Part shown: positions 82 through 63,855 of the stretch, one piece after another
How positions within the stretch are numbered: the stretch's first letter is position 1
Layout: every line of letters starts with the position of its first letter
DNA from: Ectothiorhodospiraceae bacterium
Lineage (GTDB): Bacteria > Pseudomonadota > Gammaproteobacteria > Nitrococcales > Aquisalimonadaceae
Length of the DNA stretch: 64,000 nt
Reading direction: 5' to 3'
NCBI GenBank assembly: GCA_003565775.1
Contig: PXAT01000112.1
Location: forward strand, 1 to 64,000
The notes under the pieces: generated by a model
Seen by the model: the letters and a program-made list of their open reading frames with translations, nothing else
The model's database searches: none
Told to the model about the DNA's origin: nothing
Program-made: the position numbers and the translations under genes

Positions 82-217
82 AGGCCCGGCCGGTTTTGTC
101 CCCTGGCGGCGTTGCGCCACCGGCCCGGTAGAATCACTACCGGACCGGCACCGCGCCTTGCCAGATGACCAAAACCGGTCTCGGGCGCAGACGCGGGAAA
201 ACTTCAGCGCTTCCCTA
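82..217. repeat. Truncated copy of dispersed palindromic element (right half)
   Basis: This is the right-hand half of the element seen in full at 19057-19334 and 24984-25258. It keeps the outer right-arm stem (CCGGTTTTG near 88, CCAAAACCGG near 169), the inner hairpin (CGGTAG, loop AATCA, CTACCG), and the terminal end TCAGCGCTTCCCTA. The end overlaps the apbC stop codon, TAG on the minus strand at 215-217. The left arm is missing. Bases 11-42 resemble a right-arm fragment of another copy (compare 25190-25222), so the window may begin inside a second, decayed element. No gene is supported in 1-214. Confidence 0.8.
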
Positions 218-1312
218 TGTGTTCTCGACCACAATCTTCGGGAATCGGCTGGCCGATTCCTGCGACTGGAGCGACAGACGGGCGGAGATGTTGAGCGCGA
301 TTTCCCGGTAGCTGCAGGCCAGGGCCCCGTCAGGATCCGCAACCACCGTCGGCTTGCCGCCGTCCGCCTGCTCGCGAATACGGATATCCAGCGGCAGCGA
401 ACCGAGCAGATCGATGCCGTACTGCTCCGCCATGCGGCCACCGCCACCTTCGCCGAAGATGTGCTCCTCGTGGCCGCACTGGCTGCAGATATGCGTGCTC
501 ATGTTCTCCACGATTCCGAGTACGGGCACATTGACCTTCTCGAACATCTTCAGGCCCTTGCGCGCATCGAGCAGGGCGATATCCTGCGGCGTCGTCACGA
601 TGACCGCGCCGCTGACCGGCACTTTCTGCGACAGGGTCAACTGGATGTCGCCAGTACCCGGCGGCATGTCGATGACCAGATAGTCCAGATTGTCCCAGTT
701 GGTCTCGCGAAGGAGTTGCTCGAGTGCCTGGGTGGCCATCGGACCGCGCCAGATCATCGGCGTCTCCTCGTCGATCAGATAACCGGCAGACATGGACTGG
801 ATGTCGTAGTTGACCATCGGCTGCAGCGACTTGCCGTCCGGCGATTCGGGTTTGCCGGTAATGCCGAGCATGCGCGGCTGGCTGGGACCATAAATGTCGG
901 CATCCAGGATGCCAACCCGTGCACCCTCCGCCGACAGAGCCAGAGCCAGGTTGACGGCGCAAGTGGACTTGCCCACCCCGCCCTTGCCCGAGGCGACGGC
1001 AATGATGTTCTTCACGCCCTTGACCGCATCGGTGCTGCGGTGCGTGCCGTGCGTGCGAACCTCACAATCGACTTCGATCTTGACGGCGCTCACACCGGCG
1101 ACCGCGCTGACGACCTGATGCACGGACTCGCCGAGCCGCTGGCGCGCGTCGGGACTCATCGGGAACCCCAGTGCGACCTGCACGCTGACACTGCCGGCAT
1201 CGTCCACGGCGATCTCACGCAGTGCATTGGCGGCAACCAGATCGCGACCGAGGTGCGGCTCGGTCCAGCCCTGAAGCGCCTGTTCGACCTGTTCGCGTGT
1301 CACCGTACTCAT
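215..1312 (-). CDS. apbC: Mrp/ApbC-type Fe-S cluster carrier ATPase
   Basis: Cytosolic P-loop ATPase of the Mrp/NBP35 family, known to bind and transfer Fe-S clusters to apoproteins. The 365-aa protein has an N-terminal DUF59/MIP18-like domain (about residues 5-85), a deviant Walker A motif GKGGVGKS (109-116), the DADIYGPS switch region, DMPPGTGD, and the cluster-binding CxxC (CSQC, 276-279). The chosen start at 1312 is preceded by AAGGAG; the frame stays open upstream to 1477, but that part lacks family similarity. The stop codon TAG lies in a dispersed palindromic element. Its neighbour ankyrin gene is divergent. Confidence 0.93.
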   Translation of the reverse strand: MSTVTREQVEQALQGWTEPHLGRDLVAANALREIAVDDAGSVSVQVALGFPMSPDARQRLGESVHQVVSAVAGVSAVKIEVDCEVRTHGTHRSTDAVKGVKNIIAVASGKGGVGKSTCAVNLALALSAEGARVGILDADIYGPSQPRMLGITGKPESPDGKSLQPMVNYDIQSMSAGYLIDEETPMIWRGPMATQALEQLLRETNWDNLDYLVIDMPPGTGDIQLTLSQKVPVSGAVIVTTPQDIALLDARKGLKMFEKVNVPVLGIVENMSTHICSQCGHEEHIFGEGGGGRMAEQYGIDLLGSLPLDIRIREQADGGKPTVVADPDGALACSYREIALNISARLSLQSQESASRFPKIVVENT

Positions 1313-4186: not shown

Positions 4187-4635
4187 GAGCGGGTACCCTC
4201 GTCGGATTGCGCCGCCGTCTCCAGCGGCACGCCGTCCTGGAAGCCTTCGCTGCCGTCATCATAGAAATCATGCTTCCAGACCGGCAGGCGCAACTTCAGG
4301 GTATCGATGGCATAGCGCGCACCATCAAAGGCATCGCCGCGATGCGGCGCGCGCACCACGACCAGCACGCTGGCCTCACCGATAGCCAGATCCCCGGTGC
4401 GGTGGACGATCCGGCATTCGCTGACCGGAAATTTCTCCAGCGTTTCCTGTTCCAGTTCGGTCAGCACCTTCTCGGCCATCGGTCCGTAGGCGGAATAGCG
4501 CATGCCGGTGACGCCCTTGCCGCCGTGATGGTTGCGCACGATACCGCCGAACACCACCAGGGCACCGCAGGCATCGTTCTCGGTTTCGCGCAGCAACTGG
4601 TCCATATCCAGCGGCTGATCGGTCATTCTGCTCAT
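4183..4635 (-). CDS. moaE: Molybdopterin synthase large subunit
   Basis: Catalytic subunit of molybdopterin synthase, which moves sulfur from the MoaD thiocarboxylate onto precursor Z (cyclic pyranopterin monophosphate). The 150-aa protein has the family signatures VVFGGIVRNHH, IVHRTGDLAIGEASVLV, and LKLRLPVWKHDFYDDG with the conserved lysine. It is 15 bp downstream of moaD and overlaps moaB by 4 bp. Confidence 0.95.
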   Translation of the reverse strand: MSRMTDQPLDMDQLLRETENDACGALVVFGGIVRNHHGGKGVTGMRYSAYGPMAEKVLTELEQETLEKFPVSECRIVHRTGDLAIGEASVLVVVRAPHRGDAFDGARYAIDTLKLRLPVWKHDFYDDGSEGFQDGVPLETAAQSDEGTRS

Positions 4636-4650
4636 GACTACCTCGACGGT

Positions 4651-4896
4651 TCAGCCACCACTGACCGGTGGCAACAGCACCAGCGGGCGGCTCGTATCAA
4701 TCCTCTGATCCTGCCGGATCAGACTGTCACCCTGCGCACAGGCAACGCGCTGCAGGTAAGGCGCCAGCGCCGGATAATCACGACCCAGCACGGCCAGCAC
4801 CGCGGCCGCAGTCGGTTCGTCCGGCAACGTGTCCAGCTGCAGGCGCCGATCACCGGCGGCTTGCTGCAGAACACCGAAAAGTTCGACCTCCAGCAT
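4651..4896 (-). CDS. moaD: Molybdopterin synthase sulfur carrier subunit
   Basis: Small ubiquitin-fold sulfur carrier, 81 aa, ending in the required Gly-Gly (LLPPVSGG) whose C-terminus becomes a thiocarboxylate. First gene of the moaD-moaE-moaB operon. Divergent from sufE, with a 144-bp intergenic region that should hold both promoters; I could not assign them. Confidence 0.94.
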   Translation of the reverse strand: MLEVELFGVLQQAAGDRRLQLDTLPDEPTAAAVLAVLGRDYPALAPYLQRVACAQGDSLIRQDQRIDTSRPLVLLPPVSGG

Positions 4897-5040
4897 CAGT
4901 CACTCCGTACTCGTGGGGTTCGCCCGTGGCATCACCCGGGCTCTGCCTCGAAGTATGCCACAGCGGGTGCTTCCGGAGCCGACGGACAAGCCGTCGTGTT
5001 ACGATACACAGCTGTTTGCAGCAAATCGCAAGGCATCGTC

Positions 5041-5457
5041 ATGCAACTGGATGAAGTGGTCGAAAGTTTCGAATTTCTCGACAACTGGGAAGACCGATAT
5101 CGCCTGCTGATCGATCTGGGACGAGAGCTTCCGGAGTTTCCGGACGAGGCCAGAACCGAGGATTTCCGGGTCGAGGGCTGTGTCAGCAATGTCTGGCTGG
5201 TGCATGACGTCGAGAGCGGATCGCCGCCGCGGCTGACCTTTCGGGCCGACAGCGACGCCTTCATCGTCAAGGGTCTGATCGCCCTGATCCTGATGGCCTA
5301 TTCCGGACGGACGCCGGCCGAAATCCGGGAGACGGACATCGAGGGCCTGTTCCGGAAACTGGGCCTCGAGCAGCAGCTCACCCCCAACCGGCGAAACGGA
5401 TTTTTCTCGATGGTGGAACGCATTCGTCAGATCGCGGAGCAGGCTCAGGCGGCTTAA
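5041..5457 (+). CDS. sufE: SufE/CsdE family cysteine-desulfurase sulfur acceptor
   Basis: Accepts persulfide sulfur from a cysteine desulfurase and passes it to the Fe-S assembly scaffold. The 138-aa protein has the SufE core, including RVEGCVSNVWL with the acceptor cysteine, and the conserved GLIALILMAYSGRTPAEI helix. The start is the ATG at 5041; the longer upstream frame is antisense to moaE and moaD. No desulfurase partner gene lies nearby. Its TAA stop is the first TAA of a dispersed palindromic element (TTAAGGAAGC). Confidence 0.9.
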   Translation: MQLDEVVESFEFLDNWEDRYRLLIDLGRELPEFPDEARTEDFRVEGCVSNVWLVHDVESGSPPRLTFRADSDAFIVKGLIALILMAYSGRTPAEIRETDIEGLFRKLGLEQQLTPNRRNGFFSMVERIRQIAEQAQAA

Positions 5458-5612
5458 GGAAGCGCTGACATATTCCCGCGTCTGCGCCCGAGACCGGCTT
5501 TGGTCATCTGGCAAGGCGCGGTGCCGGTTCGGTAGTGATTCTACCGGGCCGGCAGTGGACCAGCCGGGCCGGTGGCACAACGCCGCCCGAGGGCAAATTC
5601 GGCCGGGGCTGT
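5454..5612. repeat. Truncated dispersed palindromic element at sufE stop
   Basis: Starts TTAAGGAAGCGCTGACA, then continues as the reverse complement of the right half of the full element at 19057-19334 (CCGCGTCTGCGCCCGAGACC and onward). The inner hairpin is intact: CGGTAG, loop TGATT, CTACCG. An extra segment (CAGTGGACCAGCCGG) interrupts it near 5555. The loop is the complement of that in the 82-217 copy, so these two copies are close relatives. The right boundary is approximate. The rest of the gap to 5663 shows nothing I recognise. Confidence 0.8.
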
Positions 5613-5663
5613 AACAGAGTGCTGCGACCCGGTCAGCGCATCGTTACGTCCCGACTCGCGGAA

Positions 5664-19056: not shown

Positions 19057-19334
19057 TTAAGGAAACGCTGATCTATTGCCACGCCTGCGTTGGAGTCCGC
19101 ATTTTTTCCGAGGCAAGGCGCGCTGCGCGGCGCCGCAGTCATTCTGCGGTCAAGCAGCGCAACACGGCATTCGGGAAAAATGCGGCCCAACCCGAAGGGC
19201 CCGGCCGGTTTTGGCCCCTGTCGGTGTTGCGCCACCGGCCCGGTAGCTCGGGCTACCGAACCGGCACCGCGTCTTGCCAGATGACCAAAACCGGTCTCGG
19301 GCGCAGACGCGGGAATAGATCAGTGTTTCCTTAA
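19057..19334. repeat. Full-length dispersed palindromic element (copy A)
   Basis: A 278-bp imperfect palindrome. Termini: TTAAGGAAACGCTGATCTAT at the left and the complement of TTAAGGAAACACTGATCTAT at the right. Left arm: outer stem CCGCATTTTTTCC / GGGAAAAATGCGG, inner stems GCGCTGC / GCAGCGC and CCGCAG / CTGCGG. Right arm: outer stem CCGGTTTTGG / CCAAAACCGG, inner stem CGGTAG / CTACCG. Together it could fold as a stem with two branched arms. It lies 80 bp past the tpx stop and 124 bp before the GNAT-nitrilase start, with no coding potential of its own. Confidence 0.9.
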
Positions 19335-24983: not shown

Positions 24984-25258
24984 TTGAGGAGACGCTGATT
25001 AATTCGCACGTTCGCGTTGGCATCGCATTTTTCCGAGGCCAGGCGCGCTGCGCAGCGCCGCAGTCACTCTGCGGTCAAGCAGCGCAACACAGCAGTCGGG
25101 GAGAATGCGATGCCAACCCCTTGGGGCTCGGCCGATTCTGGCCCCCGGCGGTGTTGCGTCGCCGGCCCGGTAGCGACGGCTAACGAATCGGCACCGCGCC
25201 TTGCCAGGCTGCCAGAATCGACTCGAGCGCGAACGCAGGTAAATCAGTGTCTCCTTAA
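24984..25258. repeat. Full-length dispersed palindromic element (copy B)
   Basis: A 275-bp copy with the layout of 19057-19334. Termini: TTGAGGAGACGCTGATT and the complement of TTAAGGAGACACTGATT. Left-arm outer stem is a perfect 13 bp (TTGGCATCGCATT / AATGCGATGCCAA); right-arm outer stem CGATTCTGG / CCAGAATCG is perfect. Both differ from copy A by paired changes that keep pairing. The inner left hairpins are identical to copy A. It lies in the SPOR-cvpA gap, and the SPOR stop codon TAA (25255-25257, minus) is in its right end. Confidence 0.9.
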
Positions 25259-39258: not shown

Positions 39259-39285
39259 TTCAGGGGAATACTTCAGTGTTCCCTA
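39259..39285. repeat. Solo end of the dispersed palindromic element at prmB stop
   Basis: On the minus strand: TAG GGAACACTGAAGTATTCCC, which matches the terminal end of copies A and B (GGAAACACTGATCTATTCCC) with one deletion and a few substitutions. The TAG is the prmB stop codon. The internal arms are absent. Confidence 0.65.
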
Positions 39286-58780: not shown

Positions 58781-60184
58781 ATGGCCACACTCGAATTTCT
58801 CGGTGCCGTAGGCGAAGTCACCGGATCATGCTATCGACTGATACCGGACGAGGCGGACGCCGAAGGCTCGATTCTGCTCGAATGCGGCATGCATCAGGGC
58901 GGTGCCGCTGCCGACGCCGCCAATCGCGAAGATCTCACGTCGCTGGCAGGGACGCTATCGGCCGTCGCGCTGTCCCACGGCCATCTGGATCACGCCGGCC
59001 TGCTGCCGAAACTGGTCCGGGACGGCTACCGCGGGCCGATTCACTGCACCAACGGCACCCGGGCGCTGCTCGAGATCATGCTTGCAGACGCAGCGATGGT
59101 CATGGAACGCGACACGGACTGGCAGAACCGGAGGCGGCGTGGTCGCGAACCGCTGACACCGATCTATACCATGGACGACGTCGAGCGGACCCTCGATCAG
59201 TGCCAGGGGCACGGCTACGGTGAAGTGGTTCATCTGCCGTCGGGAATTCGCCTGGTCTTCCGCGATGCCGGACATATCCTCGGTTCGGCCTGCGTCGACC
59301 TCATGGTGCCGTCCGCCGGACGTGAACGACGGCTCGTTTTCTCGGGAGATCTCGGCAATCCCGACTCGGTACTGATGCGCGCCCCGGAACGCCTTCAGGA
59401 TGCGGATATCGTCCTGATGGAAAGCACCTACGGGGACCGCGACCACCGCTCCCTGGAGGAGACACTTCTGGAGTTCCAGCAGGTACTGAACGAGGCACAC
59501 AAGGGCGGTGGCAATGTGCTGATCCCCGCGTTCGCGGTCGGTCGCACGCAGGAAATCCTGTATCACCTCAGTCGTCTGCACCACGCCGGTTCCTTGCCCC
59601 AGACACGGATCTTTCTCGACAGCCCGATGGCCATTCGCGTGACCGATCTGTATGCAAGATATCGGGAGCTGCTCGACCCCGAAGACCTGCGCATCCTGCA
59701 TCAACTGGCCGCCGGCGATCCGGCGCAGTATCTCCCGGGCCTGCGCCGCACGAGAACCGTTGAAGAGTCCATGGCCATCAACCGGGTGCATGGCGGCGCC
59801 ATTATCATCGCCGGCGCCGGCATGTGTAGCGGCGGACGCATCCTGCATCATCTTCGGGAGAACATCGGCAAGCGGGCCACCCGGATCATCATTGTCGGGT
59901 TTCAGGCTGCAGGCACCCTCGGTCGACAACTGGTGGATGGCGCCAGCTCGGTACGCATTCTCGGTGATACCCTGGACGTTCGCGCCTCCGTCCATACCAT
60001 CGGCGGCTTTTCCGCCCATGCCGGCAAGAGCCAGTTGCTGGCCTGGGCCGGCGCCTTCCGCAATCGACCCCGGTTCTACCTGGTCCATGGTGAGCCCGCT
60101 GCACAGGAGGCCCTGCAACAGGCAATGCAGGACCAGCAGATGGATGCCCGCATTCCCGCCCCCCTGGACAGGATCGACCTTTGA
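58781..60184 (+). CDS. Beta-CASP metallo-beta-lactamase RNA exonuclease/endonuclease
   Basis: A 467-aa MBL-fold nuclease of the CPSF73/YSH1-like group: SHGHLDHAGLLP (the HxHxDH zinc motif), RDAGHILGSA, FSGDLGN, ESTYGDRDH, beta-CASP motif MCSGGRILHHL, and the C-terminal histidine motif GFSAHAGKSQL. Probably an RNA 3' or 5' processing nuclease. Start at 58781 has AGGGAG upstream. Its TGA stop is the first TGA of an element end (TTGAGGAGAC). Confidence 0.88.
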   Translation: MATLEFLGAVGEVTGSCYRLIPDEADAEGSILLECGMHQGGAAADAANREDLTSLAGTLSAVALSHGHLDHAGLLPKLVRDGYRGPIHCTNGTRALLEIMLADAAMVMERDTDWQNRRRRGREPLTPIYTMDDVERTLDQCQGHGYGEVVHLPSGIRLVFRDAGHILGSACVDLMVPSAGRERRLVFSGDLGNPDSVLMRAPERLQDADIVLMESTYGDRDHRSLEETLLEFQQVLNEAHKGGGNVLIPAFAVGRTQEILYHLSRLHHAGSLPQTRIFLDSPMAIRVTDLYARYRELLDPEDLRILHQLAAGDPAQYLPGLRRTRTVEESMAINRVHGGAIIIAGAGMCSGGRILHHLRENIGKRATRIIIVGFQAAGTLGRQLVDGASSVRILGDTLDVRASVHTIGGFSAHAGKSQLLAWAGAFRNRPRFYLVHGEPAAQEALQQAMQDQQMDARIPAPLDRIDL

Positions 60185-60250
60185 GGAGACACGGATTTAT
60201 TCCCGCGTCTGCGTTGGAGAGCGCATTGTTTCCGAGGCAAGGCGCGCTGC
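60181..60250. repeat. Truncated palindromic element after the exonuclease gene
   Basis: TTGAGGAGACACGG, then TTATTCCCGCGTCTGCGTTGG and GTTTCCGAGGCAAGGCGCGCTGC, matching the left arm of copy A but stopping before its return strand. The exonuclease stop TGA (60182-60184) is inside the first bases. The rest of the gap to 60429 holds no other element piece that I could see. Confidence 0.8.
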
Positions 60251-60366
60251 CGGTCCGGTAACAGAAACGCCCGGCCCCGAGCTGGCATCGCTTATGCATT
60301 GGTTGCTCGTGACCCGTGCCGGTCCGGCACCCCAACGACCGCAAACGGGCGCGGTGTTCGATCCGA

Positions 60367-63400: not shown

Positions 63401-63819
63401 GCAACCTCTCCGCCGGCGCCGTCTGCCTCGAGATCACGGAAAGCGCGGCCATCGCCAACCTGTCCAAGGTGGTGGACCTTATCCGCCAGCTGAAACCACT
63501 GGGATGCACTTTCGCGCTCGATGATTTCGGCAGCGGCCTGTCCTCGTTCGCCTATCTCAAGGCCCTGCCGGTGGATTATCTGAAGATTGATGGCAGCTTC
63601 GTCCGTGATCTCGAACATGACCCGGTGGATCTGGCCATGGTGCAGGCGATCAACACCATCGGCCATACGATGGAGCTGAAAACGGTCGCCGAATTCGTCG
63701 AAAGCGAGGCGATCCTGGAGCGGTTGCGCGAGATGGGCGTCGACTACGCGCAGGGCTACCATATCGGCAGACCACAACCGCTGCTGGACCTGCACCCGGT
63801 GCGGATGATGCCGCGTTAA
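60430..63819 (+). CDS. Ammonium-transporter-like sensor fused to PAS, GGDEF and EAL domains
   Basis: A 1129-aa protein. Residues about 1-390 form an Amt/Rh channel-like membrane domain (QAGFLCLESG; twin-His positions in TVVHGVGG and VPAHLAAGIWGT). Two PAS-type domains follow at about 455-555 and 570-690, then GGDEF (about 695-855; LARLGGDEFGIL intact) and EAL (about 870-1120; YEILVRLEE, LEITESAAI, DDFGSGLSSF, KTVAEFVES). Both cyclic-di-GMP synthase and phosphodiesterase sites look intact. TTG start at 60430 is needed for the first helix. TAA stop is in an element end. Confidence 0.9.
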   Translation: MTLDTIDILWIALCAGLVFMMQAGFLCLESGLTRNKNATNVAIKNVADFGVAVALFWAFGFALMFGISAGGWVGSSHFLTNVGHGAEAWLAAFFLFQVMFCATAATIVSGAVAERMRFVSYLIVTALVAGLIYPVFGHWAWGGVFHGEPGWLAALGFVDFAGSTVVHGVGGWVALAAVLIIGPRAGRFTDDRKTGYAINAGNRPMAMLGGLLLFLGWFGFNGGSTFAFDQTVPGILTNTTLAAVSGSLIAMALGWRLRGYGEVVYALNGSIAGLVAITASAHAVSSTQAMLIGLAGGTVMVLTDDWLQRKRIDDAVGAVPAHLAAGIWGTVAVALFGDLDTLNTGLSRGEQLGVQIMGIVVCGAWAFGVAWIVLRGIDRWQPLRVSSEAERIGLNVSEHGAHTELQALLETMQQQQTGQDLAVRAPVEPFTEVGQIASSYNRVMDALERAVGQTRSIIRDIRDGVVTTTPEGLVRSLNPGAEELFDVAAGEAIGQPLTSLLGEHGIANSQGWKPGARFEFQLSRESGRTRVLEVSVSESALPGETLLTGMVRDVTERRRIQDEMQHQRELAEVTLASIGDAVITTDESGTVKYLNPVAELLTGWQLREARGMDVRQIFRLRDELTGDSLDNPARTVLAIGRESRRPGHALLIRQDGETIAVRDIGAPIRDRHGHLIGCVLVFHDVSATLQLTRELSHQASHDALTGVPNRREFERRLGALLGTKRLADSHHVLCYLDLDQFKVVNDTCGHVAGDELLRQVTALLRGRIRESDVLARLGGDEFGILFLNCPLDKAMGLAEGLRQSIQEFRFSWDDRSFAIGVSIGVVPMDGEQTDLGRLLATADTACYAAKEAGRNLVWLYRENDSDVQAQRGQMQWVSRIRQALDQDRLRLFVQPIVALEREHVGPSHYEILVRLEEDGELIAPGSFIPAAERYGLMVEIDQWVIGNTLSWLGDACRSGEQPQATFCINVSGASLSSPAFRQMVVAKLRDSNLSAGAVCLEITESAAIANLSKVVDLIRQLKPLGCTFALDDFGSGLSSFAYLKALPVDYLKIDGSFVRDLEHDPVDLAMVQAINTIGHTMELKTVAEFVESEAILERLREMGVDYAQGYHIGRPQPLLDLHPVRMMPR

Positions 63820-63852
63820 GGAGACGCTGATCCATGCGCATGTTCGCGTTGG
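63816..63852. repeat. Truncated palindromic element after the Amt-GGDEF-EAL gene
   Basis: TTAAGGAGACGCTGATCCAT, then GCGCATGTTCGCGTTGG, matches the left end of copy B (CGCACGTTCGCGTTGG) and then breaks off. The gene's TAA stop (63817-63819) is the first TAA. Confidence 0.75.
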
Positions 63853-63855
63853 ATC

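Follow-up and report, generated by a model that had tools for sequence, protein, structure and literature searches.

Copies of an IS5-type MITE with a YTAR target duplication adjoin stop codons in a GC-rich bacterial genome

The termini of the insertion sequence (IS) IS5 of Escherichia coli start with GGAA. Upon insertion IS5 duplicates the target Py-T-A-Pu (PMC5493358). IS-derived bacterial MITEs such as MITEAba12 are short, non-coding, share terminal inverted repeats with an IS, are flanked by a target duplication and occur in many copies; MITEAba12 has a length of 113 bp and 9-bp duplications (PMC6382973). The MITE QMITE2 of Coxiella is often found in 3' untranslated regions, and one of its copies lengthens a reading frame (PMC5896051). 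ERIC/IRU, Correia and similar repeats are built of inverted repeats, lie in transcribed intergenic DNA and can become fused to reading frames (PMC2229807). Here we analysed a 64,000-bp stretch of DNA, referred to as the window, which contains copies of an IS5-type MITE, a new family of a known kind. According to a first-pass annotation of the window, the element ends always place the stop codon of the preceding gene in the same register. The stop codons of all six genes named in support were found in place, each adjoining an element end. The features are as follows.

82..214, - strand: MITE copy at apbC, left end at 214
215..218, - strand: flank ATAG; TAG 215-217 is the stop of a Mrp/ApbC gene (215-1384, - strand; Pfam)
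5454..5457, + strand: YTAR target TTAA; TAA 5455-5457 is the stop of a SufE-domain gene (4207-5457; Pfam)
5458..5612, + strand: MITE copy at sufE, left end intact (GGAAGCGCTGACATATTCC), right terminal repeat absent
19061..19330, - strand: full-length 270-bp MITE with a perfect TTAA/TTAA duplication (19057-19060, 19331-19334); no stop codon there
24988..25254, - strand: 267-bp MITE with flanks TTGA and TTAA, the TTAA being 25255-25258
25255-25257: stop TAA of a SPOR-like gene, within TTAA 25255-25258
39264..39282, - strand: solo terminal-repeat end with one A lost, adjoining TAG 39283-39285 of a prmB-like gene
60181..60184, + strand: flank TTGA; TGA 60182-60184 is the stop of a beta-CASP/RMMBL gene (Pfam)
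60185..60260, + strand: left end of a degenerate MITE copy
63816..63819, + strand: flank TTAA; TAA 63817-63819 is the stop of an Amt-GGDEF-EAL gene
63820..63855, + strand: the other MITE end, with a degenerate terminal repeat and subterminal bases (GCGCATGTTCGCGTTGGATC v TCGCACGCCTGCGTTGGAGTC, compared by eye)

The Mrp/ApbC, SufE-domain and beta-CASP/RMMBL identities agree with Pfam, and the SPOR-like, PrmB-like and Amt-GGDEF-EAL identities were taken from reading the translations. The nearest relatives of the ApbC protein belong to Ectothiorhodospiraceae/Chromatiales (70%). In the copy at 63820 the end is degenerate and the subterminal bases still match. At the sufE locus the gap is 205 bp, compared with 15 bp at the syntenic locus of a relative (G001). 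Positions 5613-5658 beside the sufE copy have no counterpart in G001; because of this and of the missing right terminal repeat the copy was considered truncated or chimeric. The claim that the elements always share one register stood for the six named genes and failed beyond them. The element at 19061-19330 lies within the window and is not at a stop, and in the analysed part of the genome approx. 21-26% of the insertions adjoin one.

The window belongs to a fragmented 3.2 Mb assembly (G000; 215 contigs, 97% complete). Statistics were taken from 1.29 Mb of it, picked around element copies and containing 165 insertions, and the empty (null) YTAR sites were drawn from these same stretches, outside elements. 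For orthologues 1.12 Mb of the less fragmented G001 assembly was used, and a complete genome of the same bacterial family (G004) was included. Genes were predicted by a codon-usage gene caller built for this analysis (1,163 genes); the stops among called G000 genes were TGA (783, 70%), TAG (201) and TAA (141). The 3.2 Mb assembly contains 116 matches to the element core (at most 3 mismatches). Several contigs end in or near element copies (e.g. G000:C105:57, C117:1 and C152:3), therefore the fragmentation of the assembly is partly due to the MITE.

Defined by paired inward-facing ends, the element is 269-270 bp long and has an additional form of approx. 160 bp; the lengths of end pairs peak at 260-279 bp (33 and 13 copies) and at approx. 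150-169 bp. The terminal inverted repeat, GGAAACGCTGAnnnATTC, runs inwards from both ends, as seen in aligned copies, and is present at both ends of 72 paired copies. We detected 521 candidate ends in the G000 stretches, compared with 52 in mononucleotide-shuffled sequence. Their 4-base flanks were most often TTAA (94) and CTAG (37), then TTGA, TCAA, CCAG and TTAG, with the consensus Y-T-A-R over all 521. Identical 4-bp flanks were found in 28 of 97 paired candidates against a permutation mean of 10, and flank identity over 5 bp was never seen among these 97. Perfect duplications were observed in G001 in 8 of 11 full-length and 11 of 19 paired copies, and in G000 in 25 of 72 paired insertions, with 29 more off by one base. 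The single differences in the imperfect G000 duplications are mostly transitions in the central TA (YTAR vs YTGR or YCAR), few of which were seen in G001. They could result from decay, assembly chimeras or looser targeting.

The elements are thus short (160 and 269-270 bp) and transposase-free; in a copy taken as an example most frames contain stops. They have terminal inverted repeats and a fixed 4-bp duplication, are present in many copies, and orthologous sites are found empty. We concluded that they are a MITE with a 4-bp YTAR target duplication. REP/BIME palindromes (Y1 transposase, RAYT), which are GTAG/GGAG-tagged short hairpins with no target duplication, were excluded by the paired ends, the 4-bp duplication and the long terminal repeats. 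At L050:9958-10499 (C127) and L060:12247-12789 (C143) two full-length MITEs are adjacent with a single 4-bp CTAG or TTAA between them, as if the later copy had used the target duplication of the earlier one as its insertion site.

The element family was found across the genus and the bacterial family. G004 contains four identical copies of an intact 1,202-bp IS with the termini GGAAACGCTGATTTATTC and GGAAGCGCTGATCTAA and the flanks TTAG/TTAG, CTAA/CTAA, TTAG/TTAG and CTAA/CTAG. Its transposase of 327 residues matched NCBIfam NF033581 (IS5 family) with E 1.5e-101, as well as PF01609 and PF05598. The likeness between the MITE and IS termini covers approx. 30-40 bp. Termini in common with an autonomous IS coding for an IS5-family transposase, together with the YTAR 4-bp duplication, place the MITE in the IS5 group. 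A transposase 95% identical to that of the G004 copies (L095-L098) was observed in another genus of the family (G011:C67:30549-31529); judged by sequence, the identical copies and this transposase suggest recent activity or transfer. No IS5-group transposase of this type was found in the 215 contigs of the 97% complete host assembly G000, therefore the copies there look orphaned, given the incomplete assembly. Two PF01609 matches in G000 were rejected as the parent transposase, as they are without such termini.

The distance between stop codon and element end, with the gene reading into the element, was exactly 0 in 37 of 246 reliable ends, and every other distance occurred at most 3 times. 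At these 37 ends the stops were TAG (18), TAA (15) and TGA (4, all of them in TTGA). In G001 all 13 element-adjoining stops were TAA or TAG. Since TAA or TAG was found at 33 of the 37 stops although 70% of the genes end with TGA (odds ratio 21, p 5e-14), we concluded that the target is YTAR and not the stop codon. The first-pass annotation had compared the shared register with a random frame that would be right one time in three. This null is not appropriate, since a TAR that lies in frame is always a stop codon.

When stops plus intergenic sites were used as the denominator, the share at stops fitted the availability of sites. In G000 it was 36 of 139 insertions (26%) compared with 22.2% of empty non-coding YTAR sites (p 0.31), and in G001 13 of 59 (22%) compared with 20.8% (p 0.87). 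Divided by gene arrangement, the stop shares of occupied v empty sites were 59% v 55% (convergent), 21% v 30% (co-directional) and 0 v 0 (divergent) in G000, and 36 v 40 (convergent) and 21 v 21 (co-directional) in G001. Insertions with a flank that is still YTAR displayed a modest excess at stops, 29 observed v 18.2 expected of 85 in G000 and 13 v 9.2 of 43 in G001, which probably arises as selection maintains TAR at stops but lets the flanks in intergenic DNA decay. Coding sequence was overlapped by 26 of 165 insertions v 284 of 858 empty YTAR sites (p 5e-6), consistent with the loss of gene-breaking insertions. Contrary to the first-pass annotation, the copies do not always lie downstream in the mRNA: the nearest outside boundary was a gene start at 115 ends and a stop at 93. 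The statement that the elements insert or are kept at stops applies to approx. one quarter of the copies, without the stop codon itself being what is recognised.

For ten element-adjoining genes of G000 a close orthologue is present in G001 (at least 75% identity), in every case with the same last residue. An element-like end follows the stop in G001 for L017 and L065, and none does for the other eight. The sufE gene ends with QAQAA-TAA followed by the element in G000 and with QAQAA-TGA without an element in G001, the last residue being the same. The apbC gene ends with VVENT-TAG in both, and the beta-CASP/RMMBL orthologue also ends at the same residue; in G001 both are without an element. Twelve paired insertions have flanks that are syntenic in G001, where the sites are empty, and the G001 locus of the window element 19061..19330 is empty as well. 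The orthologue comparison that the first-pass annotation had proposed thus agreed with it: the last residue of the protein is the same where the element is absent, and random extension or truncation was not seen for the main register.

The arrangement is very probably explained by an IS5-type MITE that inserts at YTAR, with the stop register as the product of the ordinary target-site rule and natural selection and with no targeting of stop codons. A non-autonomous IS5-group MITE would depend for its movement on an IS5-family transposase acting in trans, with YTAR as the site that is cut and duplicated; bases 2-4 of YTAR are TAA or TAG. If the target is the gene's own stop, an insertion there should be nearly neutral, because the duplicated YTAR would re-create the stop in place and leave the protein unchanged. 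Insertions at other YTAR sites within genes would break the gene and mostly be lost, purifying selection presumably being the filter. In a GC-rich, gene-dense genome about one fifth of the harmless YTAR sites would be stops, therefore a similar share of the surviving copies should sit at stops, in a fixed register.

Targeting of stop codons or 3' gene ends by the element or its transposase beyond YTAR (via terminating ribosomes, terminator hairpins or transcription ends) would also produce the sharp spike at distance 0 and the slight excess observed where the YTAR flanks are intact. We consider this highly improbable, because no excess was detected across all insertions in two genomes, nor within convergent or co-directional intervals; moreover TGA, 70% of all stops, is almost never used, and 40 of the 165 G000 units sit in divergent intervals. 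An IS5-type system with a preference for translation-stop sites beyond YTAR, for example via the DNA state at gene 3' ends, is likewise very unlikely; if true, it would represent a built-in choice of safe sites. It could also be imagined that the element supplies the stop, in-frame insertions being kept where its sequence ends the protein. Such cases exist, and here again the register is not always the same: nine genes stop at a TGA in element bases 9-11 (loci include L019:10314-10441, L004:5175, L045:8846, L054:5095 and L057:4832), and their proteins gain C-terminal residues encoded by the element (e.g. GKR or GRH). The product of the L019 gene, which ends in such residues, is shorter by 4 residues than the G001 orthologue. 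In the third frame no gene was seen reading through, two probable false end matches aside. This covers the minor second register only; in the 37 cases of the main register the stop predates the insertion, since element-free orthologues share the last residue, and as a general explanation a supplied stop is extremely unlikely.

Selection of the elements as 3' untranslated hairpins, kept beside stops as terminators or mRNA stabilisers, appears very improbable too. The full-length element folds as RNA into one long hairpin (-165 kcal/mol, z -10.7), but the long inverted repeats of any MITE fold, copies are found equally at starts and in divergent intervals, the 12 insertion sites with syntenic flanks are unoccupied in G001, and there was no match to an Rfam family, which also excluded a known RNA family. 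None of the tests run here revealed a role for the hairpin. The end sequence had in addition been interpreted as a Shine-Dalgarno site, for which we found no support: in the copies that were read, GGAAAC/GGAGAC is directed towards the interior of the element, and there is no start codon 5-10 bases further on.

Insertion at YTAR followed by selection gives a simple quantitative account of repeats that seem welded to stop codons: one class of in-gene site is harmless because the duplicated target itself contains TAA or TAG. In GC-rich genomes the genes ending with TAA or TAG would then offer YTAR-inserting elements a refuge that can be measured, and the test of occupied v empty target sites is usable for other TA-targeting repeats. 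In a limited look at the MITE and IS5 literature we did not find such an account stated.

Among the described repeats, ERIC/IRU, Correia and their like (PMC2229807) share with the window elements the inverted repeats, the position in transcribed intergenic DNA and the capacity to fuse to reading frames, but they have other sequences and another target, and their termini are not IS5-type. Coxiella QMITE2 is a MITE as well, but it has 7-11 nt direct repeats of variable sequence and other termini (PMC5896051). The likeness to MITEAba12 (PMC6382973) comprises all the general properties of IS-derived MITEs named above; the stop-codon register is seen here, unlike in MITEAba12, because the duplication of the window element is 4-bp YTAR. 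With the IS5 group (E. coli IS5; PMC5493358, PMC11677980) the family has in common the NF033581 transposase of the relative's IS, the 4-bp Py-T-A-Pu duplication and the GGAA termini. Unlike E. coli IS5, the window elements are short and without a transposase gene, and their commonest flank is TTAA, compared with CTAG for E. coli IS5.
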